Origin: Plasmodiophora brassicae | Lineage: Eukaryota > Endomyxa > Phytomyxea > Plasmodiophorida > Plasmodiophoridae | Length of the DNA stretch: 64,000 nt | Direction of reading: 5' to 3' | NCBI GenBank assembly: GCA_039704465.1 | Contig: JASFAU010000008.1 | Span: 1,240,001-1,304,000 of the forward strand | Shown: positions 1-28,934 of the stretch, in pieces | Layout: the number at the start of each line of letters is the position of its first letter | Numbering within the stretch: position 1 is the first letter of the stretch | Made by a program: the position numbers and the translations under genes | The notes under the pieces: generated by a model | Databases searched by the model: none | What the model saw: only the letters and a program-made list of their open reading frames with translations | What the model was told of the DNA's origin: nothing

Positions 1-958
1 TTCACGTCTTGTTGCATTCAGCGCGGACCTGGTCTCGCACAGCTCTTGATAGCACCGTTTCAGATTTGCTGATGTCGTGTTCGCTAGCAGCGTTAAGTTC
101 GCCAGTTCCAAATCGGCCGCTGCCGCGTAACGCTTGTGTTGCAGGCAAGCCGCTCGAGCATCTTGGAGCTCGCAGGATAGTGATTGTATGGTAATGTCGT
201 ATTGCCTCTTCGTCTTCAGGCATATGTCGTTTTCTTCATCACGCTGCTGTTGCAGCCGGAGTATATCATCACGATACTTCTTCATCGTCTTCTGATTTTC
301 ATCCCGAGTGGCCTCTAGACCTTTCATAACGGCACCGTTCTGTGCCAGCTGTTGACGCAGTCCTGCCTCAGCCGTCTGCAGTTTTTGCACGCGCGACTGC
401 TCAAACTCAATAGTCCGTTGATGTTGTTGAGCGATGGAATGCCACGAATTCGCGTTCGTTCGAAGTTCGTCCATATCGGTGTTTGCCCGCGCCAGCCGGT
501 CTGTGGCGTCCTCGAAGCGCTCTTTTATCTTGTTCACCTATGCCACGCTTCGTCAGCGGAATACGCCAGCATTGCGAAATTTGCCCTTCATACCACAAGC
601 TTGGCAGACTCTCTAGACTCAGCCGCATTGTTTAACCTGTCCAACTCAATACGCATTGCCTGTGGACATGATCGTTAATTGTCCATTCCGGAAACATGGG
701 TACAATACGGGTATTGGCGGCTACAATTACCTGATTCAGCTTAGTAGTGACCGTCGATATCACAAAATTGATATCGTATGAAGAAGCCTTTCCCAGAAGA
801 AACCGATTCACTGCTATCACGCAGGGACTAAAGCCGTACCCGCATTCGGACAGCTCGATCTGTGGCGTGAAGCCGAAAGACCTACTGAGCATCATTGATT
901 TCACGGTAGCACTGAGACTCGCTGCCGCCATAATCGCAAGAACCGTCAACTTCGGCAT
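1..958 (-). CDS. Array family copy 1 (partial): secreted/membrane coiled-coil protein
   Basis: This is the leftmost member of the nine-gene family and runs off the left edge, so the membrane segments are not seen. Exon 1 (731-958) encodes a signal peptide starting MPKLTVLAIMAAASLSA and the family C-x6-C pair (CGYGFSPC). A short exon (594-659) and a long exon (1-537) follow, joined by introns of about 70 and 56 nt with GT..AG ends; the second has a CTGAC branch-like site. The long exon is a charged heptad-rich coil (it includes DELRTNANSWHSIAQQHQ) ending in the family block with L-x-x-C at 'LKRCYQELCE'. It is the most divergent N-terminus in the array. Function is unknown; a secreted or surface role is inferred from the signal peptide and the complete paralogues. 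Confidence 0.7.
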
Positions 959-1052
959 TGTCTGATCTGACTAGAGACAACGAGAATGACGCGTCTGCCT
1001 CCCATCCGCATGCGGGATTCTGCAGGACTGCCGCAGCAGTTTGGGCCCATGT

Positions 1053-1064
1053 TTCTAAATCGGG
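1053..1064 (-). promoter_or_regulatory. Conserved upstream element of copy 1
   Basis: The plus strand reads TTCTAAATCGGG, 95 bp upstream of the copy 1 ATG. It is one base different from the array consensus TTCTAATTCGGG. Its role as a core promoter or initiator is inferred only from conservation and spacing. Confidence 0.5.
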
Positions 1065-1308
1065 ACGGACCTACGCCACTAATTCGTCGACAAATTCGGG
1101 AAGGTTTGGCAGTATCTGTTAACTGCGGTCCTCTCGAGGCGGGCTGCAGCAACCTGACGTCTACATGAACAAGACGCTCGTATTGGCACGTCTGCAACGA
1201 ACGGCGAGCGGGCCCGTCGTTCTGCCGCCTGACAATGAAACAGGCCTGACACGAAGATATAGCAGATGTGTATTGAAACCCCGTTAATGACAGAGCGCTC
1301 TACCCGGA

Positions 1309-1830
1309 TCATTGTGCGACGGAGTGCAGGAGATGATCGACCGGCGACACAGCTGGCCGTACGGCCGCAGAGCAAACGGACGGCGGCCGCCACGCGGTGA
1401 ATCTGTCATGCGCCAGGAATCGCGCAGTGTGCCCTGCGATCAGGGCAGTCGCTCCGGACAGAATCGACAGCAACTGCGATCCCGTCTTACGCAGCGTCTC
1501 ATGGTATATGACGTACGCAGCGGTGTGTGTCGCCGCCGACGATGCTTCGGTTGACCGCGAGGTGGTGATACACGATACCACTAGGGACGATACCCAACGG
1601 TTATCGGCATCCCGTTGGGGATGAAAGATTTTTCGCTGCAGGAACCTCAAGATAGTTCTAGTTTTCAAATCCGCGACAACGCCTGACAACGCCGCACCAG
1701 CCAGCATGGTCTTGGACAGACGGCCGGCCACAGGTGAGACACCGGGTTGCGTCCGGGGCGTCGTCTTTCCCAAGACGCCACCAACCACAATGAGAATCAG
1801 GACGACGCGGGCAACCATGGGCAATGACAT
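1309..1830 (-). CDS. Hypothetical secreted or membrane protein
   Basis: The open frame continues far upstream, but the first part is low-complexity arginine/aspartate shadow coding, so I start at the ATG at 1830. That ATG is followed directly by a clean signal-peptide-like stretch (MSLPMVARVVLILIVVGGVL). The product would be 173 aa, with a second hydrophobic patch in the middle (TMLAGAALSGVV) and another near residues 120-130. I recognise no domain and see no C-x6-C pair, so it is not an obvious array member, although the 'LAGAALSGVV' segment loosely resembles the first membrane segment of that family. It could also be a chance frame. Confidence 0.35.
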   Translation of the reverse strand: MSLPMVARVVLILIVVGGVLGKTTPRTQPGVSPVAGRLSKTMLAGAALSGVVADLKTRTILRFLQRKIFHPQRDADNRWVSSLVVSCITTSRSTEASSAATHTAAYVIYHETLRKTGSQLLSILSGATALIAGHTARFLAHDRFTAWRPPSVCSAAVRPAVSPVDHLLHSVAQ

Positions 1831-3045
1831 GTGAGGGTGGAACAGTGGGAGATCGGATGGCGGTCGACGACGGCCCGCGTTCGTGCGTCCAATGCCGGGG
1901 CCCTTGACGTCGTGCCCTGATTTAGACTGTCTGGCCACGAAAACTCCCACTCGGACTGCGACCCGGGGAAGAGCGCCTGGAAGGGACCTGCTCCCTCGCC
2001 ACGGACTGCGGATTCGAGGTCGCGGCAGGGCCCCGACTGACTGCGAACTGCCGCGAAGGAGCTGCAAGTCCGACTGCGAGCTGCAGCGAAGGCACCAGCG
2101 CCAATTTAATGCCGTATCCGTAGTTACATTAAAGCTGTAATTAGGTAGCCTTCCACAGGAGTGAGACCGGGCTCCGTCTTTGGTTATGTGATGGCGCAGC
2201 CGCCCCCGCACCTGCGTCGGTAGACTCCTGGACATCGTTCGCACCCGTCGCCGGATCGCGATGCCGAGCGCATGATCTTGGATGGGGGACCGCGCGCTTG
2301 TTTCAGCATTGCGTTGTCTGCCCGACAGAGAGCTGCCGCGAAGGGGCTGGTTCCGACTGCGATCCGCAGATGCGCAGACCGCACCCGGAAACGTTGCCAA
2401 CGAAACACGTACGGGACCATCGTCGTCGTCGACGACGACGGTGCGTCCGATGCAATTGCCGGATGGCAGACGGAGGCGCTGGATGCGACGCCGACGCCGA
2501 CGTCGAAGCTCCACCTGAAAGCGTACTGTGCGGCGCGGTTGCTTTAAATCTAGCCCGCGACTCCGTCTCCATCACCGTGTCGAAGGCTTGACGCAACCAA
2601 ACGTCGCACACCGAGTGCGGTTAAAGGATACCCGGGACATGCTGCTGCTTGCCCAGCAGATGCGGCGGTACGGTGTTATGTACGTCAGTGCATTGCGGAG
2701 CGCGAACCGCACATCCATCGGACGTCGCCGGTGACGGACGTGGCCAGCGCAGGGGGTCTGGCATTGCGCCAGGCAGGTGTTCGAGTCCACGAGACTCGGC
2801 GATGTTTCTGTCCTCGATCGCGCGTCACACGCACAGCCCCAGATCCCGTTGCGTCGCAGGCTCGCGACAGGAACAGGTGCGGCAGTCCACCGGGAAGCAC
2901 CTACCAGCCGCAGTGGGTGCGTAGCGCGCCACTGGGGGCGCCACCCTGATCGTGTCGTTGTTTTTGCGGAGTGTGCGGGGGCGACGGCGGTGCGCGCACG
3001 TCGTTAACCCGACGACCGAACCATTCTTTGATTCGCTCCGGGGCC
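1831..3045. other. Intergenic stretch with no convincing gene
   Basis: I see only low-complexity CGA/ACG-rich frames here, plus a short sequence (ACTGCCGCGAAGGAGCTG near 2048) that recurs in looser form near 2335 and 17100. The right part should contain the promoter of the kinase gene beginning at 3046. Confidence 0.4.
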
Positions 3046-8884: not shown

Positions 8885-9133
8885 GCAGGGAGGGGCCCTC
8901 AGATATCGCGCGCGGCCTGAATATTTATGAGGTGGGCACCTTGACGATGTATGTACATCGGGCAGGGACGGGGATGGGACGGGGTGATCTTCGCGCGGGC
9001 AACAGCGCGCGTCGACTCGGTGGGCACGTGTCGACGTTCGGCGATCGATGCCCCGTCCGCATGCATGGCGGAGCGGGTCACCAGTCCGGTGCGGGGATGA
9101 TGTCCAAACGCTTCCTGCGGCACTGAACGGCGG

Positions 9134-10539
9134 TTAGATTGCAGCGCCCGCGCGTGCACCTCCTGGGGGCGCGCGAACCTTAAGGACGAACAGCAAGATC
9201 GCGAACGCCCCGGTCAACGTGACGCCGAACCCGGCGAGCAGGTATATGATCGTGGGTTCAGGTGACGGCGGGCTCGGCGGCGTTGTCACGTGCGACGACG
9301 CATCGATCATCGGGCGGATGGGCGACAGCGACCGCAGCGCTCTCCGATCGACGGCCGACTGGAGGAACTTGACCGCCAACCCGGCAGCGATTGCACTGGA
9401 CACCGATGCCGCAATTCCTGCGGGGGGAACCACAACGTCGTCAGCACCGGCATCGTCCAACAACGTACAGGTTTGCGAACCGGAGCGAACCGCGGAGCGC
9501 CCGACCGGTTGACGTTGCGCTGGGGTCCACTTGACGAGATGCCCGGCGGCAATTAGTCCAAGACCGAACATGGACGAACCCCAGACAGGCCCGGCACCGG
9601 CTACCCAGCCGTCCTGCGACGCAGGGGTTAGCTTGCGTTGGAGTGTTGTGGACGTCAACCCGTACACGTACCTGTTGGCCAAGTCGTCGCTTTGCCTCTG
9701 TAAACTCGAGTTCCGTGTTTGCGAGTTCAGTTCTGGCGTTGTTCCAGAGTGACGTCACGTTCGCCACTTCTGCTGCCCGTTCCCGAGCGAGTTGTTCGAA
9801 CTTTACGGCCGATCGCATCATGGCATTCTTGCCCTTTGTACATATTTCCAATTCCTTGCGCATCCTTGCATTGTGTTGCCGGCACGCCTTCAACAACACG
9901 AGAGTGTGTTCCACGTCATCACCCTTCTCTAATGCATCAATGAAGGCATCCTTATCTGACAGTGCTTTCCTGTATGCCTGTTCATTCAACCTATTGCTCT
10001 CACGTAGCGTCTCCACCTCCGCTCGTAGCCGGCGCTGATCGCTGGAAATCGATTCATTGCAGACCAGTTCGCTTACATCGTTCACGATACGATTTCGTAT
10101 CAGATCCCGCTGCAGCATCTGTGAGCACAACCGGGCGTGGGTGACGTCCTGAACGGGCCTTACCAGAGGTTCGTTGAGCGCCGCGTATCGTCGATACCTT
10201 CCTTTGCCATCGGGGATTGGCATCACAGCTTTTTCTACTGTACGTTCGATGCGGTGCAACTCGCCAGCGATCGACTGTGGGGCGCACACGCGTAAGATGG
10301 GCATATACAATAAGGAGCCAGACGATGATAACTACCTTCTTCAGCTGATCCAGTATGAATCCATGACGGCCTTCCGGCACGACGACCGTCGCAATGATGG
10401 CCGCGATCGTCGCCGTGCAATTATCGAGCGACTCAGCGCAAGCCTCCCTGATCGCCGATTCGTCGCTGCCTCCCCACGATTGGGCAGCTGGCACAAGGAA
10501 CGCTGACATGATAACCCCAGCCGTTGCCATCGTCCACAT
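9134..10539 (-). CDS. Array family copy 2: signal peptide, C-x6-C domain, coiled coil, two membrane segments
   Basis: Four exons join in frame to 407 aa: 10336-10539, 9672-10274, 9481-9613 and 9134-9417. Exon 1 encodes a signal peptide (MWTMATAGVIMSAFLVPAAQ) and CAESLDNC. Exon 2 is a long charged coiled coil of about 200 residues (for example DAFIDALEKGDDVEHTL). Exon 3 carries a first hydrophobic segment (WGSSMFGLGLIAAGHLV). Exon 4 carries a short amphipathic GIAASVSSAIAAG-like stretch, a proline-rich spacer and the final membrane helix (IIYLLAGFGVTLTGAFAIL) followed by a short basic tail. The intron before the last exon contains GCTGACGACG. The topology suggests a secreted stalk anchored near its C-terminus; function is unknown. 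Confidence 0.78.
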
Positions 10540-10651: not shown

Positions 10652-11176
10652 ACGCGCACCTGCTTGCATCGGTTGGGCTTCCGGTTGGTGCGAATCTGCG
10701 CTGATCTTCTGGTGCGCGCAAACGGTTGACGTGTTTCTTAGTTTGGAAACGTGATGTGCGGACGTCACTTCCCCAGACGGCGAGTCATCGGTACGTACGC
10801 AAAGGTCATATTATAGATGACGAACAAGGTGCCTTCCGCATTGTAAGGCAGTCGAGTGTCAGTCTTGAAGTCAGAGTCACGCGTACCGGTGCGATTCAGC
10901 AGTCACCTGTACTTGAACTTGAACTTCTTCGCCCAGGCAGAGCCATGGCTTCATGAATATTCACGAAGATGTATAACAACGACTAAATGCTACGAATTGA
11001 CGGTGACTTAATTCAGCCGTCGTCACGTACGTGCTCATGGAGCCAACCAAGTTCATGGAAGTTTTTGCAATGCAATGTCGCTTCGGTGCCTCGACGAATG
11101 TCACCACATGATGTAATTGGAGTCCCTCGTCGATAACGCTCTTTTCAAACGTCGCTATACAAGACAGGGCCGCGAG

Positions 11177-12413
11177 TCAAGACACGAATAGTGTTTGGTA
11201 CCGGTTGCCAACCTTGAGGCGAGCCATCGAAACGACCAGGCCGGTAAGCAGGACGGCGAACGTGCCAGCGAGGACGTAAGCGATGATGCAGTTCGTCGAT
11301 GAACGAACGAGGGCAAAGTTCGGTGCATCGGCCGGACGACCCGACGACATTGATTGAGACGCCGCCGAGGCGGATGCCGATTGGAACGCCTTCAATGCCA
11401 CACCTCCAGCGATGGCACCCGATACGGACGACGCAATCCCTGGCGCGATCACAACGTCATCAGCACATGGAACTGTGCAACTAGGCTAAAGAAACAAACC
11501 GAAGCCACGCTTGGGCTGAAGAACGGGAACGCCTTTAGCCGGCGTTATCGTGGGCTTGCTGACAAGAGCGATACCGTATCCAAGAGCGAACAGGGCAGCA
11601 CCAGCGACGAGTACTTGACCGCGCCACCGGATCTGCCAGTACGAACCAAACGATCAGACGACTTGCAGATTGGAGTTACCAGATCCCTATTGAACCGTGC
11701 CAGTTGCGCCAGGTTGCATGCCAATACTGCCACTGTGTTTCCCTCCATGGCCAATGTTGGGGTGCTGGCCGTGCAAAGTTATCTGACCCAGCCGTTCTTT
11801 CAGCGTTGGTTTCCGTGAGGGTCGCGCAGGTGCCTAGCAGTACTTACACGATTCAGCTCTGCCGATTTGGCATCCAGTAACGCCTGCGTTGCATTGAGGC
11901 GATCCTCTAGATCCGCTTTGAAGACGGCGTCGACGCCTTTGCACGTCAGGTCGTCTGAAGCGTCCACCAAGCGCTGTCGTATGATGGTTAGCTGTATGCA
12001 CCCTTCGTCAGCATGACGCTTTAATTTGGCGATATGGAAACCCATACCAGCTCTCTATTGCGACTGATTTTCGCAACAGGTAATTTCTTGATAGCTCCTT
12101 TGAAAATACATGTTCTCTCGCCATCGATTGCCTGTGAAGGTGGATTTGATCAGCAATGATCCGTAGCGGAGGCGCCACGATCCGGGAAGACACCAACCCG
12201 CTTAAGCTCGCCCAATATGAATTCGTGCTGGCCTGTAGGTACCACTACAAGCTCAAGGATGTTGGCAATTGCGCTCATGCACCTATGGAGGGAAACGTTG
12301 CATGACGTGGTGATAGCTGTCACGTGGGTGTCACTCCACGATATCGTTAATGATTTCGCGCTCGTAACCAGGAGCGCCGTCGCTATGAAGGTGACTGTTA
12401 GCAACTTGGTCAT
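11177..12413 (-). CDS. Array family copy 3 (coil joining uncertain)
   Basis: Exon 1 (12198-12413) encodes a signal peptide (MTKLLTVTFIATALLVTSAK) and CNVSLHRC. Exons 12048-12131 and 11848-11991 follow, the latter a coil (DLEDRLNATQALLDAKSAEL) with a textbook GTAAGT donor. A further coil block (TVAVLACNLAQLARFNRDL), the first membrane segment (QVLVAGAALFALGYGIAL) and the last exon from about 11429 (GIASSVSGAIAGGVALKAF, then IIAYVLAGTFAVLLTGLVV) are all present. I could not join the GTAAGT exon to the next coil block in frame, so a frameshift or unseen small exon is possible. The TAG at 11485-11487 lies inside a normal intron and is not a premature stop. Confidence 0.65.
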
Positions 12414-13082: not shown

Positions 13083-13245
13083 ACACGATCAACCGAAATA
13101 GTGTTTGGCCAGAGCTGACGACCACGTGCACTGACGAAACTGAACGGTTCGAAAGAACAGTAAGTGGTGGAGGTTCATTGTTCGCGCTCGTCGACAGACA
13201 TCATCGATATCAGTTCACCATCAGACGGCGCTGAACAGGGTGGCT

Positions 13246-14873
13246 TCATGTCAACAATATTTTGGTAGCGAATCGTTTGAGAGCATCACCAACCTTGAAA
13301 TAAACGAAAGTGAAGACCAGGACGACAGCCAGGGTGGAGCAAACGCCTGCCAAGATGTAGATGATCATCGTGCGGCCAGGCGATGAAGACACGGGGGTCG
13401 CAGTTGGGGGACTGATCTGGCCAACTTTCGGGGACGGTTTCGAGGTCGTCTTCGAAGCTGTCGCCGACTGGACAACCTTCAATGCGACACCTCCAGCAAT
13501 GGCAATCGACACAGCAGTCGTCGACACTGCCCCTGAGCGCATCATAGCATCAATAGAGGATTGTCAGGTGAACATGGGCGCGACAAACCTGAGAAGAGCC
13601 TCGGCTGAGCAACAGGTGCAATTTCCCCCGCCTTGGGCTTGGCGAAATGACTGACAACGTGTCCGACCGCTGAGGCGGCCGTCCCTACCAGCAGACCAGC
13701 GCCGAGCATCTGAGAGGAACACGTCATCTCATTCATCGATGATGTTGAAGACTCCAGCAGATATCAATCTCACCTGTTTGCCACGCTTCTTCACCGCCGC
13801 CTGCGAACTGTTTCTCGTGTCGGCAAGCAACGATTTCGTGCGTGCCAGTTCTCGTTGGCACATTTCAAGGCTGGAAGATGTCCGATTAACCACCAGCTGC
13901 ATTTCCTTTACCTGTGCGCCCAACTTCAATGCATTCCGCTCATGCAGTTGGATCTTGAGTAACGCCTGATCTTTCAATAGACGATCGTCTTCCTCGAACG
14001 ACGACAGATCCGTTTGTTGGTTTACACATGCGTTCGCCAATGACGGCTCTTGATGCAGCGCATTCAGCTCAGAGGTCAGGCAGGTCTGCGCCTCTTGTCC
14101 AGCTGTTAGTTCTGGAAGGCCAACCGCGGTCGCATTGACGTCTTCAGCGTCTTGGTTGCCACGAGCGGAAGTCGTAGCATTGTTCCCAGGAGGAGAATTC
14201 TGTTGACAGAGTATGTGGCCGTTCAGAGCATACTGGTAACAACGCTGATTAGGGCCCCGTAACTGACAGGAATGCTAGAAGAGCTGAATGCTTCCTTAAG
14301 GACGTCGACGACCTGCCCTTGTAAGACCTTCCGCTGTCGTCCCGGTTATTATCGTTCGCAGTGAGGAAAAATGTCTTACCAGATCCTCGTTATAGGCCAC
14401 CCATTCACGAGCCCTTCGGCTTGACCACTCCCAATACAGCTGTCTGGTGGTCCACAATGTCTCCAGGGATTTCACAACCTGTAAGGAATTGCGATCAATG
14501 ATAAGATTCCATCACGTTCATCCTCGACGCCGAACGTTTGTCAATTCGGTGAAGTCTCTCATCAACACGTGTGGGCCCACGTCGATGCTAGTCAGTGCCT
14601 GGAGCAACACGTTAGTCAGCGAACGCCATGCATTCACGGACGCTGCAGAGACATGGAGGCCACTACCTTGTTCAGCTCATCGATGAAGAGTTGGTATTGG
14701 TCTTCGGGAACTATCGTCGATTTCATGGCGGACATGATCGCGCTCATGCACTTCTCGAGGGACTTGGGACACTCCGTTTTGATCGTGTTCTCGTCGCTCT
14801 CAGCCCATGGCCTGGCGTTGGCGGAAAGGACGAGCGCAAACATTACGCAGCCAATCGTGGTCGTGCTCCACAT
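13246..14873 (-). CDS. Array family copy 4
   Basis: Exons resolved are 14667-14873 (signal peptide MWSTTTIGCVMFALVLSANA and CPKSLEKC), two small middle exons between about 14370 and 14610 (ALTSIDVGPHVLMRDFTEL, then SLETLWTTRQLYWEWSS), the coil exon 13774-14199, 13589-13709 (first membrane segment, MLGAGLLVGTAASAVGHVV) and 13246-13532 (second membrane helix, IIYILAGVCSTLAVVLVFTF). The coil ends with the family block VNRTSSSLEMCQRELART, which carries an N-glycosylation sequon. The intron between the two membrane exons (65 nt) contains CACCTGACAATC. The gene looks intact. Confidence 0.75.
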
Positions 14874-14970: not shown

Positions 14971-15464
14971 CCGATACCCATTTCGGGGCACCACCCGGCA
15001 CGAGCACGTTACCATTCCAGGTTCCTCCTACCTATGTATGTAGGCATGTCCGTAGTCCTAACAGGGCGCATACGTTCATGCTCCCACAGGGTTCATGAGT
15101 CGTGCCACATCACGGTGACCCAGTCGCAGTCATTGCTGCCCTCCAATGTATTCTCATGATCCAGAAACACCATCAGCCATTGTCAATCGACATCCAATAA
15201 CTGACAGCTGCTAATAATCTGAGGGACCATATCAAAAGCCTATCAGGTAAACGAACTGGTTATCGCTAACAACGGGCCCGCTTGCTATCGTAAACAAAGA
15301 CGTCAACCTCAACTTCATTGCAAGAACATCACGGTTCTGGCGCCGGGTCAATACTCGGTCGACGTCCTCAGGAATGGCTGCAACGCACACAGTCGGCATA
15401 GCTCATCAATATCTGCATCTCTTTCAGTCGGCGCTGAGAAGGACCCGACGTTAGCAAGACAATA

Positions 15465-16990
15465 TCAGGAGATATGCGGGAGCAGTTCGCCAACCTTGAA
15501 ATGAGCGACAGAGACAACCAGGACGATGAGAAGGGTGGCGCAGACGCCAGCCAGGATGCAAATGCCGATGGTACGGACGTCGATCGGCGAACAATCGGGC
15601 GTTGCATGTGGAGAACCGGTCGGGTGGGCAAACGAGCCTGACGGCTTCGACGTCTTCGTTACGGTCGCCGCCTGGAACGCCTTCATCGCGAAACCCCCAG
15701 CGACAGCACCCGATAATGCCGACACGATCCCTGGAACAGCAGAGTATATCAGGAAGCAAATGCGCAATGGAATATAAGGCACAAACCGGCGCTTCGCTGC
15801 AGTTGAGCAGCCTGTAGAACGGGAGCGTGCCCTCCTGTCGTGGGCTTGACGAGGCGACTGACGCCGTAAACAACAGTTGATGCGGTAGCCGCCCCTGTAG
15901 CCAGACCAACTCCTAGCATCTGTTTGTACATGTGTGTCAGAGACGTCGAGCCATGCATCATAGACTGGCGGTCCACTCGACCTGTTTGCCATATTTGTTG
16001 AGAGCAGCGAGAGAGCTGATCTTAGCATTGTCAAGCGTCGTCGTAAGGTTAACGAGTTTTTGTTGGCACAACTCTAGTCTTGACGTGGTTCGATTCAATT
16101 CCAACCGCATTTGATCTGCCTCTGCGTCCATCGCGCGACGATCATACAATTGGGCAATGCGCAATGTCTCACCTAAGTGGGACTCGCTCTCCTCAGAGGA
16201 TGCCTCCACCAAATCGCGTCGAGCATTCCCATTGCTCAAGTCAGCTCTCGCCACCTGGGACGTATCGCAATCCCTGTGAAGGCTATCCTCCTTCGTCGCC
16301 TTGCCTCCTGCTTCAGATTTCACTATTCTGTGCTCAGTGGTCCGTAGGATTTCTTGGCCGTCAACACCTGATTGCGAGTATGAACATCCTGGCGCCCTGT
16401 TCAACGCAGATCCTTACTGTGCCGCTGCTCATTCGAAGTGTCGGGTTGGCGAGGTTTCCGTATCTTGGAATAACTGTCCGCTGAGTCCTGGCGGAATTCA
16501 ACATACACCACGTCCGACAGATCGTCTGTAGTGACGTGCGCGAAACGCTGTTGTATGGCTTGCAGCTGGAGTGCTTCGTCAGCCTAATAGACTATACGTG
16601 GTGGCAGCACAAAACTCTACCGTACCAGAACTCGGTTGGAACGAACACCGGCTTCATCGTAGAATCGCATTGTAGCGATGGCACGCTCGAACTGGGCCAT
16701 CTCGAGACTAAGCACCTGAGAAATCGACATTGTCAATCCAATAACAGCCGAGACCACGAACATGCTGGTTTCCCTACAAGACTCAGCTGATCCAATATGA
16801 AATCGTACTTGTCCTCAGGTACGATTGCCATCTCAAGAATGGCCGCGATTACAGGAATGCACTGATCGAGCGACACCGCACAACCGGTCCTGATATTTGC
16901 CTCGTAGTCCGCTTTCCACGACGTCCCCGATTTGACGGTGATCAGCAGCACTGCCGGTATAATCGCAGCGATTACCAGCTTCGACGTCAT
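15465..16990 (-). CDS. Array family copy 5
   Basis: Exon 1 begins at 16990 with a signal peptide (MTSKLVIAAIIPAVLLITVK) and CAVSLDQC, and ends near 16771 at a GTAGGG donor. The coil exon ends near 15980 with LNRTTSRLELCQQKLVNL. A membrane exon follows (MLGVGLATGAATASTVVYGV). The last exon (15465 to about 15732) carries GIVSALSGAVAGGFAMKAF, a Ser/Pro/Thr spacer and the helix IGICILAGVCATLLIVLVV with a short tail. The intron between the membrane exons starts GTTTGTGCC and ends GTTCCAG. The upstream coil contains a polar stretch rich in K/E/D. Middle exon borders between 16400 and 16770 were not resolved. Confidence 0.72.
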
Positions 16991-17825: not shown

Positions 17826-17892
17826 GATGCTCCAGGACGACAGTCATGCGAATTAATGAATTGCTCATGGACGACGATGCGTCATCGCCGCC

Positions 17893-18195: not shown

Positions 18196-19374
18196 TCACG
18201 AACGCCTCATTGACTGGGACAACGAATCCAGACAGCATGCGCTCGCTGAGTAGGAATGAAAACTCAGCAGCCGTCGGCAGGATACGCAACTCTTACCGCC
18301 GTTCATTGGATTATTTGAAATGAAATTAAACAGGCACTGGTCTGACAGGTCCACTGCCAGGCGTGGCCTCAAATGCGATGAAACTGGATGCAGTTGGCAC
18401 ACCTCACTGATGTCACCTGCGAATTCTTCAAACGGCGCTGGACAGAGAGCACTGACGTCAGCGGCACGAGCCAGTACTCTACAGAGCAAACGGTGTTTGT
18501 TGACCTTGAAACGGAGGTGCGAGACAACCATAACGATGATCAGGGTGGCACAGACGCCAGCCAAGACATAGGTGGCGACGGAACTGTCACGCGCTGGACG
18601 AACGAGCGCATCGGGTGGAGAACCCGCCTGATGCATTACAGCCGGCGACGACCTCGACGCCTTCAAGGCGGTGACCGACTGGAACGCCTTCAATGCACCA
18701 CCGCCAGCGATGGCGGTCGATACGGTCGACACGATTCCTGTGGGTGAACAGGAGAGCACTCAGTAGAGGACATCCAATTGATAAAACGTCTCTGGCGCAG
18801 ACCCGAGCGGCGCCTCGGTTGACCAGAAACGAACGCGCTCTTCCCCGTCATGGGCGCTGTGCGATAGCCCACACCGTATCCGATAACAGAAGCAGCCGCC
18901 GCTACAAGCAGACCAGCGCCCAGCATCTATAAGATTGCATGCGTCTACTGTCAATAACATATTGGCTCAAGCACCCGGGCGGAGTCCATGTTCGACCTGG
19001 TTGCCACGCCTGCTGACAAAGGCCTGGGAGCCTTTGTCGGCACCGTCCAGCCGGGATTGCAAGCTGGTCAGGTCTCGCTGGCACGCCTGCAGGCTTGACG
19101 CGGTCCGGTTCATATCCAGCAGCAGTTGCTTGACCTGTTCGCCCAAGCCCAACGCGGGTTGCCCGAGCAGATGTGCCTTGCGCAGGTATCGGCCTTTAAC
19201 AACCATTGTCTTCTTCATTCCGTCCACGATCGCACCCGAGCATTTGCGCAGGGTCCTGGCGCACTCTGCAATGATCTTCCGTTCAACATTGCTCCCTGAC
19301 CACCTATTGGCGTTCGCCGAAAGGACGATTGCGGGTAGCAATAGGCAGACAGCCGCGGCCGCCTTCCATGTCAT
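18196..19374 (-). CDS. Array family copy 6 (internally shortened)
   Basis: Three exons join in frame to 352 aa: 18997-19374, 18788-18926 and 18196-18737. The first encodes the signal peptide (MTWKAAAAVCLLLPAIVLSA), CARTLRKC and then, without the usual intron and acidic stalk, passes directly into the coil (RKAHLLGQPALGLGEQ) and the block LLLDMNRTASSLQACQ. In copies 8 and 9 the matching coil residues lie over 150 residues after exon 1, so this copy has lost the end of exon 1, an intron and the stalk in one in-frame deletion. The membrane exons are intact (MLGAGLLVAAAASVIGYGV; TYVLAGVCATLIIVMVVSHL). The C-terminal tail is unusually long, about 80 residues after the last helix. Confidence 0.75.
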
Positions 19375-19473: not shown

Positions 19474-19958
19474 CATCACCCCCGCCTGCGCATGCAGAAC
19501 GTCAAACATGGCTAACGACTTTGCCGGACGGGTCTGTCCGTTTCGCCATCGGCTTCTCCAGTAGACCCTGCAAAGGGCCGGTCTTCTCCTGCCGAACCCC
19601 GTTTCCACTGAACTGGGCCGTTTGATCATGATGCCGACGTGTCCGCGATCGAGGCAAGCGACTGCACCACAGACGACGTGACGTTACATGCCGACACCAG
19701 GTAACCAGCAGTCACCACGTCTCAACACGCCGGCCGTCGTCTGTTTAATTGCCACTGGGATCACTACGAGGACAGACTTCGCGCGCTGCGCTGAACAGGA
19801 ACGCAAATGCCGTCGGCAGTATACGCAACGCATCCGACGATATTCACTCGATGATTTGAAACGAGACACGCACCGGTCTGAGAGGGCCGCGAATTGTCCT
19901 CAAATGTGGTGACATTCGATGCAATCCGCGTAATTGACTGATATCAGCTGCAATTCCC

Positions 19959-22006
19959 TCAGGCGGCGCTAAACAGAGCACGTTCGTCAGCGACACGGGG
20001 CAGTGCTATACGGAGCAAACGGCGTCTGTCGACCTTGAAGCGAACGAGCAAGACGACCGTAAGGATGATCAGGGTGGCAGACACACTGGCCAGGATGTAG
20101 ACGGTCGAGCTGTTGCGCGCTGGACGATCGGCCGCCGAATGCATTACAGCCGACGTCGACGATTTGGACGCCTCCAAGGCGGCGACCGATTGGAACGCCT
20201 TCAGTGCAATGCCTCCGGCGATGGCGGTCGATACCGTCGAGACGATCCCTGGGTGAACAGAAGTACACTCAGCACATGACATCCGGTCCAACAAATTGAA
20301 ACATCGCTTGCACAGACCGGAGGGGCGTTTCGGTTGACCTGAGGAAACGGGGGCGTCTTTCCCGGGCGCGGCGCGAAAGCCAACACCATATCCAATTATA
20401 ATTGACGCCAGCAGGCCGGCGCCCAGCACCTTGGAACGAACACGGCTACTGTCACTCATGGCGAAGGCCGCCGGATGGGCACGGCCGCTTTCGACCTGAT
20501 AGACGCGCCTGCTGACGTCAGCGGTATGGGAGTCGTTCCTCGCATCGCCAATTTGGGTTTGCATGCTGGTCAGGCCTTGCTGGCACGCCTGCAGGCTTGA
20601 GCGATTCCGGTGCTCACCTAGTAGCAACGTCTGGACCTGTCCGTCCAAGGCCAACGCGGGTTTCTCGAACGCTTGGGCCTTGCGAGTCGCCTCGTTCAAC
20701 ACACATCCTCTATCAACGCCCCAGGGTGCCTGTCGCACAACGAGTAGGGCATCGGTGTCGCCGATCGCAATATTGCCCTTCGTCTGGTCATCCTGGGCCT
20801 TGGTTGTCTGACCGATCGCTGCCGGATCCACTCCAGACGCAAGCGGGGTGGGCGGGTCCATTGGCTGACTTGCCAGGGCCAACGTCGTCTCCTCGCGAAC
20901 CGAATTCACACACGATATCGGGTCTTCATCAGGCGCGCCGTGCTCGGTGCCACTCCCCCCTTCAGGAACTTCGTGAACATCCTCTTCCGACAATTGGGCG
21001 TCAACTGGTGGGTTGCTGCCGCCGGGCTGGTGGCAAAGGGCCGAACGGTTAGCTGACACTACGGGAACAGCATTGGCGCTTGAATGGGCCAATGGCGCCT
21101 CCTGATGATGGACCATGCTCAGATCCGAAATCGGGTCTTCCAGTGCCCCCTGCTTGCTGTCATCCTGCCCGTCAGGAACATCAATATGGACGTCCTCGTC
21201 TTCCGACAATGTGCCGCCAAATTCCGGCATACTCACGCCGCGAGCTAACTGAAGACCAGCGTCAGCCTTTGTGGTATCGTTCACACCAAGGTTTCGGCTG
21301 GCGGACATCGACACGACGTGCCTGATGCCACCAAACTAATGACACAGGACACACCGGTTAATTAGCAGCCAATCGGGGAACAGCATAGGAGATTGTTTCG
21401 TGACTGACAGCAGTGGTACTAGCTCCAGGGTTGAGAATTTCGCCAACGGCGTTGACGATGTTCTCACGTATGTGGATACGCTGTACTGGTCGGTTAGATC
21501 TGTAAGTAATTTAGATGCAGGATACCTTACCAGTTTCTTGTTAACGTTCCTTCCTGCAAAGAACTTCCGAGCGGAAGTCGAGCCGGTCCAGAACGGCTTC
21601 AGACACGCGGCGAGCTGCACCAAATGATGGTTAGAGCAAACCCTTCATGCGAATCACCTCATAGGAAGTACTTTGGCCAAGGTGTTGATGTCATTAACAA
21701 CGGTTTCTCGGTGCAGGAACTTAGTGAGCGCCTGGACATATATGAATTACCACCGTGTCATTCCAGTGTCACGCATTCACGCTCGCTCCCTTTCACCTGC
21801 TTCATTTGCTTGACGATAAACGGGTATCGGCCTTCAGGGACCACCGTGTTCTGCGTTTCGTCCACGATCGCCTCCGTGCATTTACGAAGGGACTCGGCGC
21901 ACCCGGAAATGATTCTCCATTCATGGCTCCCTGGCCACCGGTTGGCGTTCGCTGAAAGGACTAGAGCTGACACCAGGCAGACAACCGCCGCCATCTTCCA
22001 CGCCAT
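19959..22006 (-). CDS. Array family copy 7
   Basis: Exon 1 (21797-22006) encodes a signal peptide (MAWKMAAVVCLVSALVLSAN) and CAESLRKC and ends at a GTGAAA donor. The 3' part is clear: coil exon ending at 20496, membrane exon 20303-20429 (VLGAGLLASIIIGYGVGF) and last exon 19959-20248 (STVYILASVSATLIILTVVL). The stalk exon (from 21314 or further upstream) is very acidic, with repeats of the type LSEDEDVHIDVPDG and LSEEDVHEVPEGG. The region 21330-21620 matches the second exon of copies 8 and 9 but contains a TAA where they read through; an intron from GTACCACTG to TCATTAG would remove it, but its phase does not fit simply. The central join is therefore uncertain. Confidence 0.7.
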
Positions 22007-22117
22007 CGCTGCACCCGAACGCGTATAGCCAGAATGGCCGGGCCTCGCGCGTCTGTCTGGGTCCGAGCGCTGACCTGTCGCGCACACTCTCGCGCAGTCA
22101 GCGTCAGCCGCGCGCAA

Positions 22118-22129
22118 TTCTAATTCTGG
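22118..22129 (-). promoter_or_regulatory. Upstream element of copy 7
   Basis: The plus strand reads TTCTAATTCTGG then CATCACC, 112 bp upstream of the ATG. It lies inside the left end of the segmental duplication and is repeated at 25822. Confidence 0.5.
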
Positions 22130-22193
22130 CATCACCCCCCGCCTCGGCGGGTGGCCTGCTGCCGGCAGGATACGCAACGCCAATCGACAGTAT

Positions 22194-24168
22194 TCATTTG
22201 GATGGTTTGAAACGAAACACGCACTGGCCAGCTGACAGGGACGTCTGCGCTGCCATGCATAGCCTTAAACGTGGTGGCATTGGACGCAGTCGGCGTACTT
22301 CATTGATGCCAGCTGCAGATCCTTCAGACGGCGCTGCACAGAGGACGTTGTCAGCGACACGAGGCAGCAACACACAGAGCCGGCCGACCTTGAAACGAAC
22401 GAGCGAGACGACCATAATGATGATCAGGGTGACACAGACGCCGGCCAGGACGTACGCGACGATCGAGCTGTCACGTGCTGGACGAACGCGCGCATCGGGT
22501 GGAGAACCCACCGGGTGGGTTACAGCCGACGTCGACGATCTGGACGCCTTCACGGCCGCGACCGACTGGAACGCCTTCAATGCGACGCCCCCGGCGATGG
22601 CGGTCGATACGGTCGACACGATCCCTGGGTGGACACGGAAGTTCAATCAGTACACGACATCCGGTCGACAATTAACGTCGCCGGCGCTGACCGGATCGGC
22701 GCTCCGGTTGGCCAGAAACGGGCACGTCTTTCCCGGGAATGGGAGCGGCGCGATACCCGACACCGTATCCGATCACTGAAGTGGCAGCCGCTGCCAGCAG
22801 ACCAGCGCCCAGCACCTAAACAACGCAGGCGTGATCTACTGTCAGTCATGTTGACGCGAGCACCCGGGCCGGACACGTCCGGTTCCGACCTGATTGCCAC
22901 GCCTGCTGACAGCGGCCCGGGAGTCGTTGCTCGCACGGTCCAGCCGGGATTGCATGTCGGCCAGGTCTCGCTGGCACGCCTGCAGGCTTGCGTTGGTCCC
23001 GTGCATATCCAGCAGCAATCTCTTGACCTGCTCGTCCAAGTCCAGCGCGCGTTGCTCGTGCAGTTGGGCCTTGCGTATCGTCTCGTCCAAGAGACGTCCG
23101 TTATCGACGCCCCGGCTGGGCGCCTGTGCCACATCGCTGCCGCGAGCCGCGTTGTCCTTCGTCTGGCGATTCTCCAGTTGGTCACCCTGGACTTGGGTGG
23201 CCAGCTGGCCGGTCGCTTCGGAACCCGACACGAACGCGGTAAGCGGATCCGTCTGCTGGTTTGCCAACGAACGGGCCAATGTCGTCTCCCGATCGTGAAC
23301 CGTTGTCAAACCCGGTTCGATCGGGTTTTCCGGCGCCCAGTGCTCGTCGGCATCCCACTCTTCACGAGCGTTGTGGAAACCCTCTTCTATCTCGTCATCC
23401 TCCGATATACCGACGCGAGTCGCGTCCGCCTTTGTGGTATCCTTTACACCAACTCGGCTGGACGACGCCGGGCCGGCGTGCCTGACGTCGACAGGCTGGC
23501 GGCACAGAACACAACGGTTAGCAGACAATCCGGGAACACCAACGGTGCTCGTTTCGTGTCTGACATTAGTGGTTGCTCCAGGGTTGAGAATCTCACCAAC
23601 GGCGTTGACGATGTTCTCCTTGAGGTGCGTACGCTGTACTGATCGATCAGACCCGCGAACCTCCAGAACCAGAACAACGTACCAGCCCTTCGTTTTCGCT
23701 AATTAATTCCCATGAGGAGGGCCGGTTACGTAAGGCGGTCCACAACGGCTCCAGGAACTCTGCGACCTGCACCAGTCGACAATCAGAAGAAACGCTTCAT
23801 TAGAGCCACCTGCTACGACGAACATGTTTCAGCGTGTTGATGTCTTTGACGACGTCCTCTCGGTCCACGAATGCAGTGATGGCCTGCATAAACCATCGAC
23901 GTCATTCAAACGTCGCGGATTGACGGTCGCTTCAATGCCAGGGGGTGTCGCTCACCTGTTTCAACTGGTTCGTGATAAAACCGTACTGCTCTTCAGGAAC
24001 CAGCGTGCTCTTCATTGCGGCCACAATCGCGTCCGTGCATTCAAGGAGGGACTTGGCGCACTCGCAACGGATATCCTCATCGTCGTTCGATGACCACGGA
24101 TGGGCGTTCGCCGAAAGGCATAGCGCTGATAGCAATATGCAGACAGCCGCGGCCACCATCCACGACAT
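22194..24168 (-). CDS. Array family copy 8
   Basis: Exon 1 (23956-24168) encodes a signal peptide (MSWMVAAAVCILLSALCLSA) and CAKSLLEC, ending at a GTGAGC donor. The stalk/coil exon ends at 22890 and includes ENIVNAVGEILNPGATTNV, an acidic segment and the coil block with MHGTNASLQACQRDL. The membrane exons are 22677-22815 (first segment, GAGLLAAAATSVIGYG-like) and 22194-22624 (IVAYVLAGVCVTLIIIMVVS), with a stop at 22194 giving a tail rich in arginine and proline. A second small exon between 23700 and 23950 was not resolved. It is nearly identical to copy 9. Confidence 0.78.
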
Positions 24169-24276
24169 CGCTGGCCGAAACGTTCTCAGGACGACCGGGC
24201 CTCGTTCGCGTGTGGAGCTCAGTCGCACGCCCTCAGGGGCCGTCAGGCAGCATCAGGCTATATCAGGAGCGCATAA

Positions 24277-24288
24277 TTCTAATTCGGG
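24277..24288 (-). promoter_or_regulatory. Upstream element of copy 8
   Basis: The plus strand reads TTCTAATTCGGG then CATCACC, 109 bp upstream of the copy 8 ATG. Confidence 0.55.
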
Positions 24289-25509
24289 CATCACCGCGCT
24301 GCGGCCAAACAATGACTTACCTGAGCAGACTCTGTCGGACGGCTTTGCCACAGACGTCGAGGTAACGTGGCGCAGATCGACGGCGAAGCGATCGCGGAAT
24401 GTGGAGGTGCATCTCTTCGAAATCGGCAACGAACCTGTTGTCGTCGCCGTTGTCCGCCTTGTATGAGTGGTCGCACGGCCATTGCCTAAGAAAGAGCGCC
24501 ATTGCCTATAACCAATGTGGTAAGCCGAACAGAACAGATAGAAACCATCCGAGAGACTATTGTACCGATTACGAACCGTGGTCCGATTTTCATCTGACCC
24601 GAACTCGTGTATGACGTTGGAGCGCTGACAGCACGGCCACGACTGGCCATCATGCTTGTAGGGGCGGCGATGCAACTAGCAACGTTCAGGTCAAAGACGA
24701 CAAAGTTCCCAACAAGGAACAGGAGATGATTCCAGCGACGAACTCGAGAGAATTTGCCTGTGGCAATACGTCGAGTTCATATGCGACTTCATCTCACGGG
24801 CAGGATATGAACCAGCGAATGAAACGGATCGCATTGTCAAATGTTCTAGTCAAGCATGCGCGCGCGACTGACGTACAGATATCGTAACGCGCCGGCTCGG
24901 GATAACGTCAGGCAAAGCGTCTTCCAAGAACCGACGCGCGTCACGATCAAACGTTCGCGGCTCAAAGCTCTCGAAATTGTCTTGAACAGGTGGAGACGTA
25001 GTACTGGAAGACTGTGATCCAGAATACAGCGCGGGCAAAAGCGAAACCGCCATTAATGAGGGGGAACGCAATTGCGAACGAAGGCGCGACGGCGAGGTCG
25101 CTGGTCCACACCATGGCACAATGGACCTTCCATTCGAGATGGGTACTCCGGCTTGTCAACGTTGCCGGACACCCATACAACCAGCGCCGAGTTCATTGCC
25201 TAACGCTGATTACCCCGAGACCGTTCCAGATCCAGGGGCCGACTATAATAATTCCCATGGGAATCCACATTACCAGTCTTGGAAACGAGTTACCTGGACA
25301 CTTGTCTTCGAGGTCAAATGATTGTTATAGGGACGCCCTGGTGGTAGTGGCCTCGTAGGAAATCAGCACCAAATGTCATCTAGATTGTCAGCGACTTTGA
25401 TGGTGCCTGGGAGACGTCCAGATAAACCAGTACAAAGGACCCCAGCGAAGGGTCCTCTCGTGTAGGTGCACCAAGCATCTGATCGAATGATGAGCGTTAG
25501 AGAAAACGA

Positions 25510-25767
25510 TTATGCTGCGGGCAGGACATACCGATAGTGTGAATAGGGATGGTGGCACGATTGACTCCAGACGTGCCAGCGAATCGCGATCTCGCCAACA
25601 AGTAAATTCCAAGCCTGTCTCTTGGAACGATTTCGCAAGCAACGTCGATTCCGCATGCAGAAATTCGAAGGTGGCCTTCCAGAAGACCACTGCGGGGGAG
25701 TTTGGGCCAGATTTAAACACGGGAGACAATACAGAGCTAGACTGGTGAAACCGATGCCTTTCACCAT
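25510..25767 (-). CDS. Possible small secreted protein in the unshared block
   Basis: The ATG at 25767 is followed by a signal-peptide-like segment (MVKGIGFTSLALYCLPCLNL) and an 85-codon frame. It sits 55 bp downstream of a copy of the array upstream element, as if a new coding sequence had been placed behind an array promoter. An overlapping minus-strand frame (GPNSPAVVFWKATFEFLHAE) also looks protein-like, so the true product, possibly spliced, is uncertain. No family is recognised. Confidence 0.35.
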   Translation of the reverse strand: MVKGIGFTSLALYCLPCLNLAQTPPQWSSGRPPSNFCMRNRRCLRNRSKRQAWNLLVGEIAIRWHVWSQSCHHPYSHYRYVLPAA

Positions 25768-25821
25768 GGCCAAACCAAGGGGCCGGTTTTCGGCTTGACC
25801 GCCATCATCAGCCGCGCGCAA

Positions 25822-25833
25822 TTCTAATTCTGG
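25822..25833 (-). promoter_or_regulatory. Array upstream element without an array gene
   Basis: The plus strand reads TTCTAATTCTGG then CATCACC, identical to the copy 7 element, but an unrelated ORF (ATG at 25767) follows instead of an array exon 1. Confidence 0.45.
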
Positions 25834-25993
25834 CATCACCCCTCGCCTCGGCGGGTGGCCTGCTGCCGGCAGGATAAGCAACGCCAATCGACAGTATTCA
25901 TTCGGATAGTTTGAAACGAAACACGCACTGGCCAGCTGACAGGGACGTCTGCGCTGCCATGCATGGCCTTAAACATGGTGGCATTGGACGCAG

Positions 25994-27967
25994 TCAGCGT
26001 ACTTCATTGATGCCAGCTGCAAATCCTTCAGACGGCGCTGCACAGAGGACGTTGTCAGCGACACGAGGCAGCACCACACAGAGCCGGTCGACCTTGAAAC
26101 GAACGAGCGAGACGACCATAATGATGATCAGGGTGACACAGACGCCGGCCAGGACGTACGCGACGATCGAGCTGTCACGCGCTGGACGAACGCGCGCATC
26201 GGGTGGAGAACCCACCGGGTGGGTTACAGCCGACGTCGACGATCTGGACGCCTTCACGGCCGCGACCGACTGGAACGCCTTCAATGCGACGCCCCCGGCG
26301 ATGGCGGTCGATACGGTCGACACGATCCCTGGGTGGACACGGAAGTTCAATCAGTACACGACATCCGGTCGACAATTAACGTCGCAGGCGCTGACCGGAT
26401 CGGCGCTTCGGTTGACCAGAAACGGGCACGTCTTTCCAGGGAATGGGAGCGGCGCGATACCCGACACTGTATCCGATCACTGAAGTGGCAGCCGCTGCCA
26501 GCAGACCAGCGCCCGGCATCTAAACAACGCAGGCGTGATCTACTGTCAGTCATGTTGGCGCGAGCACCCGGGCCGGACACGTCCGGTTCCGACCTGATTG
26601 CCACGCCTGCTGACAGCGGCCCGGGAGTCGTTGCTCGCACGGTCCAGCCGGGATTGCATGTCGGCCAGGTCTCGCTGGCACGCCTGCAGGCTTGCGTTGG
26701 TCCCGTGCATATCCAGCAGCAATCTCTTGACCTGCTCGTCCAAGTCCAGCGCGCGTTGCTCGTGCAGTTGGGCCTTGCGTATCGTCTCGTCCAAGAGACG
26801 TCCGTTATCGACGCCCCGGCTGGGCGCCTGTGCCACATCGCTGCCGCGAGCCGCGTTGTCCTTCGTCTGGCGATACTCCAGTTGGTCACCCTGGACTTGG
26901 GTGGCCAGCTGGCCGGTCGCTTCGGAACCCGACACGAACGCGGTAAGCGGATCCGCCTGCTGGTTTGCCAACGAACGGGCCAATGTCGTCTCCCGATCGT
27001 GAACCGTTGTCAAACCCGGTTCGATCGGGTTTTCCGGCGCCCTGTGCTCGTCGGCATCCCACTCTTCAAGAGCGTCTTCGGACTCCTCCTCGCAAATCAC
27101 GGTGTCCTCCTCCGATATACCGACTTCGCGAGCCGCGTCCGCCTTTGTGGTATCCTTTACACCAAGGCCTCGGCTGGACGACGCCGGGAAGGCCTGCCTG
27201 ACGTCGACAGGCTGGCGGCACAGGACACAACGGTTAGCAGACAATACGGGAACACCAACGGTGCTCGTTTCGTGACTGACATTAGTGGTTGCTCCAGGGT
27301 TGAGAATCTCACCAACGGCGTTGACGATGGTCTCCTTGAGGTGCGTAAGCTGTACTGATCGGTCAGACCCGCGAACCTCCAGAACCAGAACAACGTACCA
27401 GGCCTTCGTTTGTGTCCATTGGATTCGGTCCACATATAGATGCGACGGGCCGGAACAGCTCGAAAGGTAAGAGGGACTGGGCCAGGGTGAAATACGAGTC
27501 TGTCCAGGCGTTCCGGATCGGATCGGAAGATGAGGCGGTCCACAACGGCTCCAGGCACTCTGCGACCTGCACCAGTCGACAATCAGGAGCAACGCTTCAC
27601 TAGAGCCACCTGCTACGACGAACATGTTTCAGCGTGTTGATGTCTTTGACGACTTCCTTTCGGTCCACGAATGAGGTGACGGCCTGCATAAACCATCGGC
27701 GTCATTCAAACGTCGCGGATTGACGCTCGCTTCAATGCCAGGGGCGCCGATCACCTGCTTCAACTGGTTCGTGATGAAACCGTACTGCTCTTCAGGAACC
27801 AGCTTGGTCTTCATTGCGGCCACAATCGCGTCCGTGCATTCAAGGAGGGACTTGGCGCACTCGTAACGGATATCCTCATCGTCGTTCTCTGACCACGGAT
27901 GGGCGTTCGCCGAAAGGCATAGCGCTGATAGCAATATGCAGACAGCCGCGGCCACCATCCACGACAT
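25994..27967 (-). CDS. Array family copy 9
   Basis: This is the duplicate of copy 8. Exon 1 starts at 27967 (an in-frame ATG at 27988 is also possible) with the same signal peptide and CAKSLLEC. The stalk exon includes YVVLVLEVRGSDRSVQLTH and a more acidic segment than copy 8 (EEDTVICEEESEDALEEWD). The coil and the intron-separated membrane exons match copy 8; the last exon is 25994-26328. A single C-to-T change relative to copy 8 turns CGA into TGA at 25994, so the C-terminal tail is 32 residues shorter. All splice sites used by copy 8 are preserved. Confidence 0.78.
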
Positions 27968-28075
27968 CGCTGGCCGAAACATTCTCATGACGACCGGGCC
28001 TCGTTCGTTTGTGGAGCTCAGTCGCGTGCCCTCAGGGGCCGTCAGGCAGCATCAGGCTATATCAGGAGCGCATAA

Positions 28076-28087
28076 TTCTAATTCGGG
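28076..28087 (-). promoter_or_regulatory. Upstream element of copy 9
   Basis: The plus strand reads TTCTAATTCGGG then CATCCCC, 109 bp upstream of the copy 9 ATG (27967). Confidence 0.55.
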
Positions 28088-28934
28088 CATCCCCGCGCTG
28101 CGGCCAGAAATGACTTAGCAGACTCTGCCAGTGCCGGACGGCTTTGCCACAGACGTCGAGGTAACGTGGCGCAGATCGACGGCGAGGCGATCGCGGAATG
28201 TGGAGGTGCATCTCCCCGAAATCGGCAACGAACCTGTTGTCGTCGCCGTTGTCCGCCTTGTATGAGTGGTCGCACGGTTCGCCAGCTAACAAAGAACGCC
28301 ATTGCCTATGGCCAATGTGGTAAGCCGAACAGAACAGATAGAAACCATCCGAGAGACTATTGTACCGATTACGAACCGGTCCGATTTTCGTCTGACCCGA
28401 ACTCGTGTATGACGTTGGAGCGCTGACAGCACGGCCACGACTGGCCACCATGCTTGTAGGGGCGGCGATGAAACCAGCAACGTTCAGGTCAAAGACGACA
28501 AAGTTCCCAACAAGGAACAGGAGATGATTCCACCGACGAACTCGAAAGAATCTGTCTGTGGCAATACGTCGAGTTCAGATGCGACTTTATCTCACGGACG
28601 GGATATGAACCAGCGAATGAAACGGATCGCATTGTCAAATGTTCTAGTCAAGCATGCGCGCGCGACTGACGTACAGATATCGTAACGCGCCGGCTCGGGA
28701 TAACGTCAGGCAAAGCGTCTTCTAAGAACCGACGCGCGTCACGATCAAACGTTCGCGGCTCAAAGCTTTCGAAATTGTCTTGAACAGGTGGAGACGTACG
28801 CCTACGTACAGAGCTTTAACATCGAAACGACTGCAAGCAAGCGCGGACTAGCTACCTGGGTGCTGTTAAACGAGGACCCGTCGCCAAAGAAGTCCAGCGG
28901 CGAAGGCGCATCGCGTGCACCCCTTCGTGGTCGT

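Follow-up and report, generated by a model that had tools for sequence, protein, structure and literature searches.

A nine-gene array of putative helical membrane proteins in Plasmodiophora brassicae, with localised divergence and a head/rear mosaic of two copies

What kind of protein is encoded by nine adjacent paralogs of the clubroot parasite Plasmodiophora brassicae (Phytomyxea, Rhizaria), and is part of that protein being diversified? The genes lie on the minus strand at a single locus, in a 64,000-nucleotide stretch of contig C8 (C8:1240001-1304000, hereafter the window; coordinates without prefix are window positions). The contig has 1,313,302 bases in a genome of 25.34 Mb and 21 contigs, and the array sits about 45 to 74 kb short of its right end. 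A preliminary description, made from the letters of the window, placed the starts of the nine copies at 958, 10539, 12413, 14873, 16990, 19374, 22006, 24168 and 27967, and all nine open a reading frame with a signal-peptide-like N-terminus. The array, the family and a mosaic protein among the public records are well supported. We see about an even chance that the family is lineage-specific and that its members are helical membrane proteins of the cell surface, with an N-terminal part that diversifies, a partly homogenised rear and a role in contact with the host. The contrast between copies 8 and 9 in one segment of exon 3 and the head/rear mosaic in another assembly are new here.

The unit containing copy 8 (22104..25000, minus strand) pairs with 25808-28798, which contains copy 9, at 96.5% identity over 1604 alignment columns and 94.5% over 1272. 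The two copies are about 95% identical across about 2.9 kb, introns included, save for one ectodomain segment in exon 3, and they derive from a recent duplication of that length. Exon 3 is the sole break in the DNA homology of the unit: a stretch of 37 bases in copy 8 (23696..23732, minus strand, 13 residues) is without counterpart in copy 9, which has 121 bases at the corresponding position (27412..27532, minus strand, 41 residues). The coding gaps in exons 3 and 4 sum to multiples of three. A 141-bp query over the copy 9 segment matched only itself in the genome, so no donor was found there, and no tandem repeat that might be the source of the segment was detected in 1-30000 at a score of 40. 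The expectation of conserved ends around a variable middle was borne out, with the sharpest variation in this exon 3 segment and in an acidic segment of exon 4.

For rate comparisons, the N-terminal half was set to begin with mature exon 1 and to end 100 codons into exon 4, the remainder being the rear. Between copies 8 and 9, 13 of 373 intron sites are different. With exon 3 excluded, nonsynonymous changes number about 30/386 in the N-terminal half versus 7/638 in the rear (p=6.6e-8), the N-terminal half changing more than the introns (p=0.012) and the rear less (p=0.017). The N-terminal half including exon 3 gives 50/450 (p=3.3e-5 versus introns), a count that includes non-homologous sequence. 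Between assemblies, copy 8 and the public protein record P0001 differ at 5 of the 13 residues of the variable segment, versus 8 of 473 elsewhere (p=6.7e-6). Tandem paralogs here show a local excess of amino-acid change over introns and rear, in one paralog pair and one assembly pair. The split points and tests were picked after viewing the alignment, which counts against our reading of these contrasts, and the p-values are therefore guides only.

These figures bear on a rival explanation, in which an ordinary tandem expansion evolves under relaxed constraint: the protein would be a structural membrane or cell-coat component with a tolerant middle, and conversion would follow from the proximity of the copies. 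The ratio of nonsynonymous to synonymous divergence (dN/dS) stays under 1 for almost every pair of exon-1 or exon-6 sequences, there is no nonsynonymous excess over synonymous change once exon 3 is left out, and exon-6 divergence from copy 8 grows with distance along the array, roughly and not strictly, as stepwise duplication predicts. However, simple tolerance fits poorly with an N-terminal half that outpaces the introns and a rear that lags behind them, with the concentration of between-assembly differences in 13 residues, and with a block difference inside an otherwise about 95% identical unit. We regard relaxed constraint as a live but rather unlikely explanation.

Public records also point to exchange between copies. 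Copies 8 and 9 of the window differ at 76 diagnostic protein columns, in a comparison for which P0003 and P0004 were trimmed of the ends that derive from introns. Wherever P0003 has a residue, at 69 of these columns, it agrees with copy 9. P0002 shows the copy 9 state at 49/49 columns up to column 148 (39 in the exon-3 block, and 10/10 of the others), and among the 27 columns from 154 onwards its residue is of copy 8 type in 23 and of copy 9 type in two, with none in the other two. Its first 143 residues are those of P0003 and its last 371 those of P0001. Since P0001 and P0002 are identical over these 371 residues and have different heads, gene conversion is indicated; the simplest account is that the rear of copy 9 was converted by copy 8 in the lineage of the other assembly. 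According to PMC6794840, P. brassicae has been reported to undergo gene conversion. The initial picture of a hypervariable stalk under diversification is refined, since copies 8 and 9 are homogenised over a large part of their 3' half.

Our best reading joins these observations as follows. The array has been enlarged through tandem duplication. Two of the copies at least, 8 and 9, exchange sequence: conversion homogenises the rear (stalk base, anchor and tail), and the exon-3 segment in the N-terminal half is replaced or rapidly changed. This segment would face outwards. The two cysteines of a C-x6-C pair encoded by exon 1, being seven residues apart, would lie on one face of a helix and might link two chains. 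The resulting diversity might serve host contact, for example by letting the surface of zoospores or plasmodia go unrecognised by receptors of the plant. The inference we favour is a role at the host interface; self-recognition and relaxed evolution are live alternatives. More tentatively, the array may act as a gene-conversion-driven system of surface diversification, which swaps or mutates short exposed segments among membrane-anchored proteins and so varies recognition by the host or by another clubroot cell. We know of no such system in Rhizaria, and none was found in the open-access literature among the matches listed.

Several further observations weigh against this preferred reading. 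In the N-terminal half without exon 3, nonsynonymous and synonymous rates are statistically indistinguishable (p=0.42), so that positive selection on that half is suggested, not proven, and relaxed constraint may explain the variation. The rear is not uniformly alike, as exon 5 carries five of its seven nonsynonymous changes. The exon-1 dN/dS values (28 pairs, copy 6 left out) lie between 0.32 and 1.21, a single pair exceeding 1, and those of exon 6 (28 pairs, copy 1 left out) between 0 and 0.83, many dS values in both sets being near saturation. The window, P0002 and P0003 all carry one and the same copy 9 segment, which is hence invariant in that comparison. P0001 is itself mixed, with the copy 9 state at 4 of the 10 N-terminal diagnostic columns outside the exon-3 block, and both proteins that reveal the mosaic belong to a single assembly, in which a local error might look like conversion. 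For an antigen archive, nine copies are few. Finally, AlphaFold models of the relatives P0009 and P0001 are poor (mean predicted local distance difference test, pLDDT, 41.6 and 35.7); this structural check, proposed at the outset, gave all-helical models, but with confidence too low for any fold assignment.

In allorecognition systems of other organisms, variability marks identity. The array proteins could likewise mediate or gate the fusion of zoospores or plasmodia, their variability serving as a mark of self, and the anatomy of the family fits this rival: it is tandem and membrane-anchored, with a variable head and a partly homogenised rear. Occasional fusion in the life cycle is mentioned in a figure legend of Schwelm 2015 (PMC4471660). 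However, predominantly clonal reproduction is reported in PMC12052817 (clonality is disputed in PMC6794840), there are only nine copies, and nothing shows that copy types pair, a partner gene not having been searched for. We consider self/non-self recognition unlikely, and we retain host contact as the preferred role.

The term lineage-specific rests on searches at two levels. Genome-wide counts come from three single-sequence queries: exon 6 of copy 8, exon 1 of copy 8 and exon 1 of copy 5. The first gave 10 matches at E<=5 in the whole genome, nine of which are the nine array copies (eight with E values of 2.4e-41 to 3.5e-6, and copy 2 with 0.037); the tenth, at C8:456906 (E=0.27), is likely due to chance. 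Exon 1 of copy 8 had eight matches, all inside the array (seven copies at 1e-43 to 1.2e-6, and copy 3 at 0.055), and exon 1 of copy 5 had seven, again all inside the array, with copy 3 at 2.6e-9. Neither exon-1 query recovered exon 1 of copy 1 from the genome, and the membership of copy 1 therefore rests on exon 6, its position and the cysteine pair. Within the reach of single-sequence search, the family appears confined to this locus. At the protein level, the searches returned 11 distinct relatives, of which eight bear an organism name, in every case P. brassicae; all four in a third search were likewise from P. brassicae. A profile search for distant relatives returned two proteins and missed members of its own query alignment, so its silence is weak evidence for the absence of the family outside P. 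brassicae.

The proteins follow a common order. The signal peptide and the C-x6-C domain come first, and short exons of the ectodomain lead to a charged stalk, which in most copies has a glycosylation-type site close to its base. A hydrophobic exon rich in Gly/Ala follows, and the next exon encodes another Gly/Ala-rich hydrophobic segment, a linker and the strong membrane helix, ahead of a short tail. A permissive -3/-1 cleavage pattern was present in 9/9 N-termini (by rule of thumb), in agreement with the proposed secretory signal, and the C-x6-C pair is invariant in the nine aligned first exons, as had been claimed. The VPE motif was less general than described: by eye, it is exact in six of the nine copies (2, 4, 5, 7, 8 and 9), reads VPT in copy 3 and is lacking in copies 1 and 6. 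Similarly, for the NRTxSxLxxCQ block (by eye), the sequon is found in 8/9 copies (not copy 3) and the cysteine in 8/9 (not copy 2), both in 7/9, and the exact CQ in 6/9. The sequon part of copy 4 is treated as an intron in P0007 and retained in P0011. The position of this N-x-S/T sequon at the stalk base is consistent with the lumenal side. The proposed pair of membrane segments holds as regards the hydrophobic exons, but three hydrophobic stretches follow the stalk and only the last is strongly transmembrane, with Kyte-Doolittle values of 2.3-3.0 versus 1.1-2.2 and 1.3-1.75 for the other two (six sequences, P0001 standing for copy 8; copies 5, 6 and 9 left out). The exon-6 alignment covers seven copies, copies 1 and 9 being left out (the copy 9 protein equals that of copy 8 there). 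The predicted coiled coil was supported only in part: heptad contrast is clear in copy 1 and in the copy-8 block, but marginal in the copy-4 block and absent from copy 2 (5, 1, 22 and 140 of 300 shuffles, respectively, equalled the signal). Taken together, the signal peptide, sequons and membrane helix make a cell-surface location likely, as judged from these sequence features.

The claim of an apparently undescribed family held. No Pfam family scored above its cut-off in copy 8 and nine further proteins, and the profile hidden Markov model check set beforehand did not refute that reading; no match in PDB profile searches reached an E value under 0.08. The nearest curated family is the FAM174-like DUF1180 (24.1 bits for P0006 and 21.2 for P0005; cut-off 27.7), but membership was rejected, as the best match, that of P0006, lies 3.6 bits under the cut-off and only two of the nine proteins scanned have a match. 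The Pfam matches to DndB, protocadherin, TMEM51, DUF1180, DUF4293, holin 3_6 and SRP54_N all fall below their cut-offs, most of them over the membrane helix, and are attributed to chance or composition. The NCBIfam SMC/Rad50 matches in copy 1 are far under cut-off and were discarded as coiled-coil cross-hits. No Rfam family matched the window at gathering scores. Among the matches listed in the open-access literature for the family, its locus tags and tandem or lineage-specific membrane families of the parasite, we found no description of it, and passages of PMC7996130 and PMC6177251 contain nothing on it. Public records file its members singly, as uncharacterised, 'transmembrane' or 't-SNARE'.

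The last of these names raises the possibility of an internal, SNARE-type protein of membrane traffic. At source, P0001 goes under the name 't-SNARE coiled-coil homology domain-containing protein', and in the array proteins a helical stalk does adjoin the C-terminal membrane helix. However, no SNARE model appeared among the Pfam matches (E<=1 in copy 8 and six further proteins, 0.1 in nine), so the identity suggested by the public name was rejected, and an N-terminal signal peptide and lumenal-type sequons are unlike a cytosolic SNARE. We judge this role very improbable, and a surface membrane protein remains our preferred interpretation.

The gene structures underlying these comparisons were obtained from hand models with GT...AG introns, which give open frames for copies 1, 2, 3, 8 and 9, and from public records for copies 4 and 7; copies 5 and 6 were checked by their conserved exons. 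Seven of the nine copies thus have a full modelled or publicly annotated frame, with six to nine exons each. In four hand models, the intron that separates the two hydrophobic exons is the only one in phase 1, all others having phase 0; its position and phase are identical in all four, as first noted for the position. The short ectodomain exon or exons and the final cytoplasmic-tail exon had been overlooked at first. The other-assembly records P0001, P0002, P0009 and P0011 agree with most modelled junctions. The PBTT records among them appear, from their sequence differences, to come from another strain, and when other records are compared, the substitutions are dispersed (16 in copy 2, 11 in copy 4 and 11 in copy 7).

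Copy 1 had been considered incomplete, but its C-terminal exons adjoin the window on the left, and it is therefore a complete gene. Its 5' part (1..958, minus strand) comprises exon 1 (958-731), with the signal peptide and the C-x6-C pair, exon 2 (659-594) and exon 3, which runs from 537 to six bases past the window edge and encodes a long helical stalk; its 3' part, exons 4-6, lies at C8:1239333-1239930 on the same strand, with the C-terminal exon matched at C8:1239511-1239723. The last exon (L009, C8:1239333-1239440) encodes a cytoplasmic tail that is longer, with a more basic start, than the other modelled tails. Copy 2 (9078..10539, minus strand, hand model) has six exons, at 10539-10336, 10274-10164, 10118-9672, 9613-9481, 9417-9179 and 9122-9078; PBTT_05063 (P0009) has the same ends and other junctions, and its third exon begins three codons later. 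Copy 3 (11101..12413, minus strand, hand model) has seven, at 12413-12198, 12131-12048, 11991-11848, 11742-11680, 11632-11500, 11439-11213 and 11154-11101, and no public protein corresponding to it was among the protein-search hits. Record P0007 tiles exactly onto copy 4 (13210..14873, minus strand; 394/395 residues in nine pieces), and PBTT_05064 (P0011), from another assembly, tiles onto it at 395/413 residues.

Copy 5 (15368..16990, minus strand) was located by its conserved exons, with exon 1 at 16990-16778, exon 6 at 15730-15495 and the end of the last exon at about 15368. Copy 6 (18369..19374, minus strand) is without the intermediate exons: exon 1 continues in frame as stalk (19374 to about 18997), exon 6 lies at 18737-18505 and the tail exon ends at about 18369. 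P0005 tiles exactly onto copy 7 (19900..22006, minus strand; 571/571 residues in nine pieces) and starts 42 codons upstream of the start given above, at 22132. P0005 and P0007 are labelled 'mitochondrion' at source, despite their introns and a megabase contig; this is probably a labelling error. Copy 8 (22265..24168, minus strand) has seven exons, at 24168-23956, 23883-23824, 23766-23683, 23633-22890, 22815-22692, 22624-22389 and 22333-22265, and an extra 69-base segment of its exon 4 (23564-23496) is removed as an intron in P0001, P0002 and P0003. The seven exons of copy 9 (25969..27967, minus strand) lie at 27967-27755, 27683-27624, 27566-27399, 27349-26594, 26519-26396, 26328-26093 and 26037-25969, and P0003 tiles onto the first four of them at 395/398 residues. 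On the plus strand, antisense to copies 8 and 9, there are stop-free stretches of 457 codons (22269-23639) and 461 codons (25973-27355), which are probably a by-product of G+C-rich coding sequence.

Copies 1 and 2 are set about 8 kb apart, with a kinase match on the plus strand in the gap. The gene concerned, at about 3050-6500, is interrupted by short introns, and by eye it may resemble a Fused-type kinase. Outside the array, 57702-58604 on the plus strand strongly matches PF02685, the glucokinase family (E=8.7e-67). This family is mainly bacterial, and the origin of the gene in this eukaryote may merit attention.

Clubroot resistance in crops breaks down, and the published lists of effectors of this parasite come from pipelines that drop proteins with membrane helices. 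The array exemplifies what such filters lose, namely membrane proteins with signs of localised diversification. With its nine defined genes, the locus allows one to ask if surface variation occurs in a Rhizarian plant parasite, and it might also serve as a marker to distinguish strains.

The closest comparison by anatomy may be sought among known surface families. The variant surface glycoproteins (VSGs) of trypanosomes have a signal peptide, a variable N-terminal and a more conserved C-terminal part, and they diversify by gene conversion. The array proteins resemble them in their predicted helical ectodomain, signal peptide, variable head and more conserved rear, and in gene conversion between copies, indicated here at the protein level in one copy pair and one assembly; a helical, coiled-coil VSG ectodomain is described in the abstract of PMC1868767. 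However, the array proteins appear to have a transmembrane anchor and a tail where VSGs have a glycosylphosphatidylinositol (GPI) anchor; on exon structure and hydropathy, a coding exon follows the strong hydrophobic helix, which would run counter to a GPI signal. Moreover, the array consists of nine genes with introns at one locus whereas VSGs number hundreds, and no VSG was among the Pfam matches (six members at E<=1, nine proteins at 0.1) or PDB profile matches. Like the RIFIN, STEVOR and PIR proteins of Plasmodium, the array proteins are multigene membrane proteins with a variable part beside hydrophobic segments, but they occupy a single locus, and no such Pfam family was among the matches. 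They share with t-SNAREs a helical segment ahead of a C-terminal membrane helix, and one record, P0001, bears the name, but they have a signal-peptide-like start in 9/9 (by rule of thumb) and no SNARE domain match. The sub-cut-off likeness to FAM174-like proteins covers the linker and membrane helix in P0005 and P0006, but leaves out the C-x6-C domain. With the candidate secreted effectors of P. brassicae, the array proteins share the organism, a signal peptide (by rule of thumb) and the lack of a known domain, but they carry a strong transmembrane helix in all six sequences tested. Three published P. brassicae secretome pipelines, as described in PMC4471660, PMC4815078 and PMC12503489, discard proteins with transmembrane helices, and the family therefore falls outside the published secretome lists by design.

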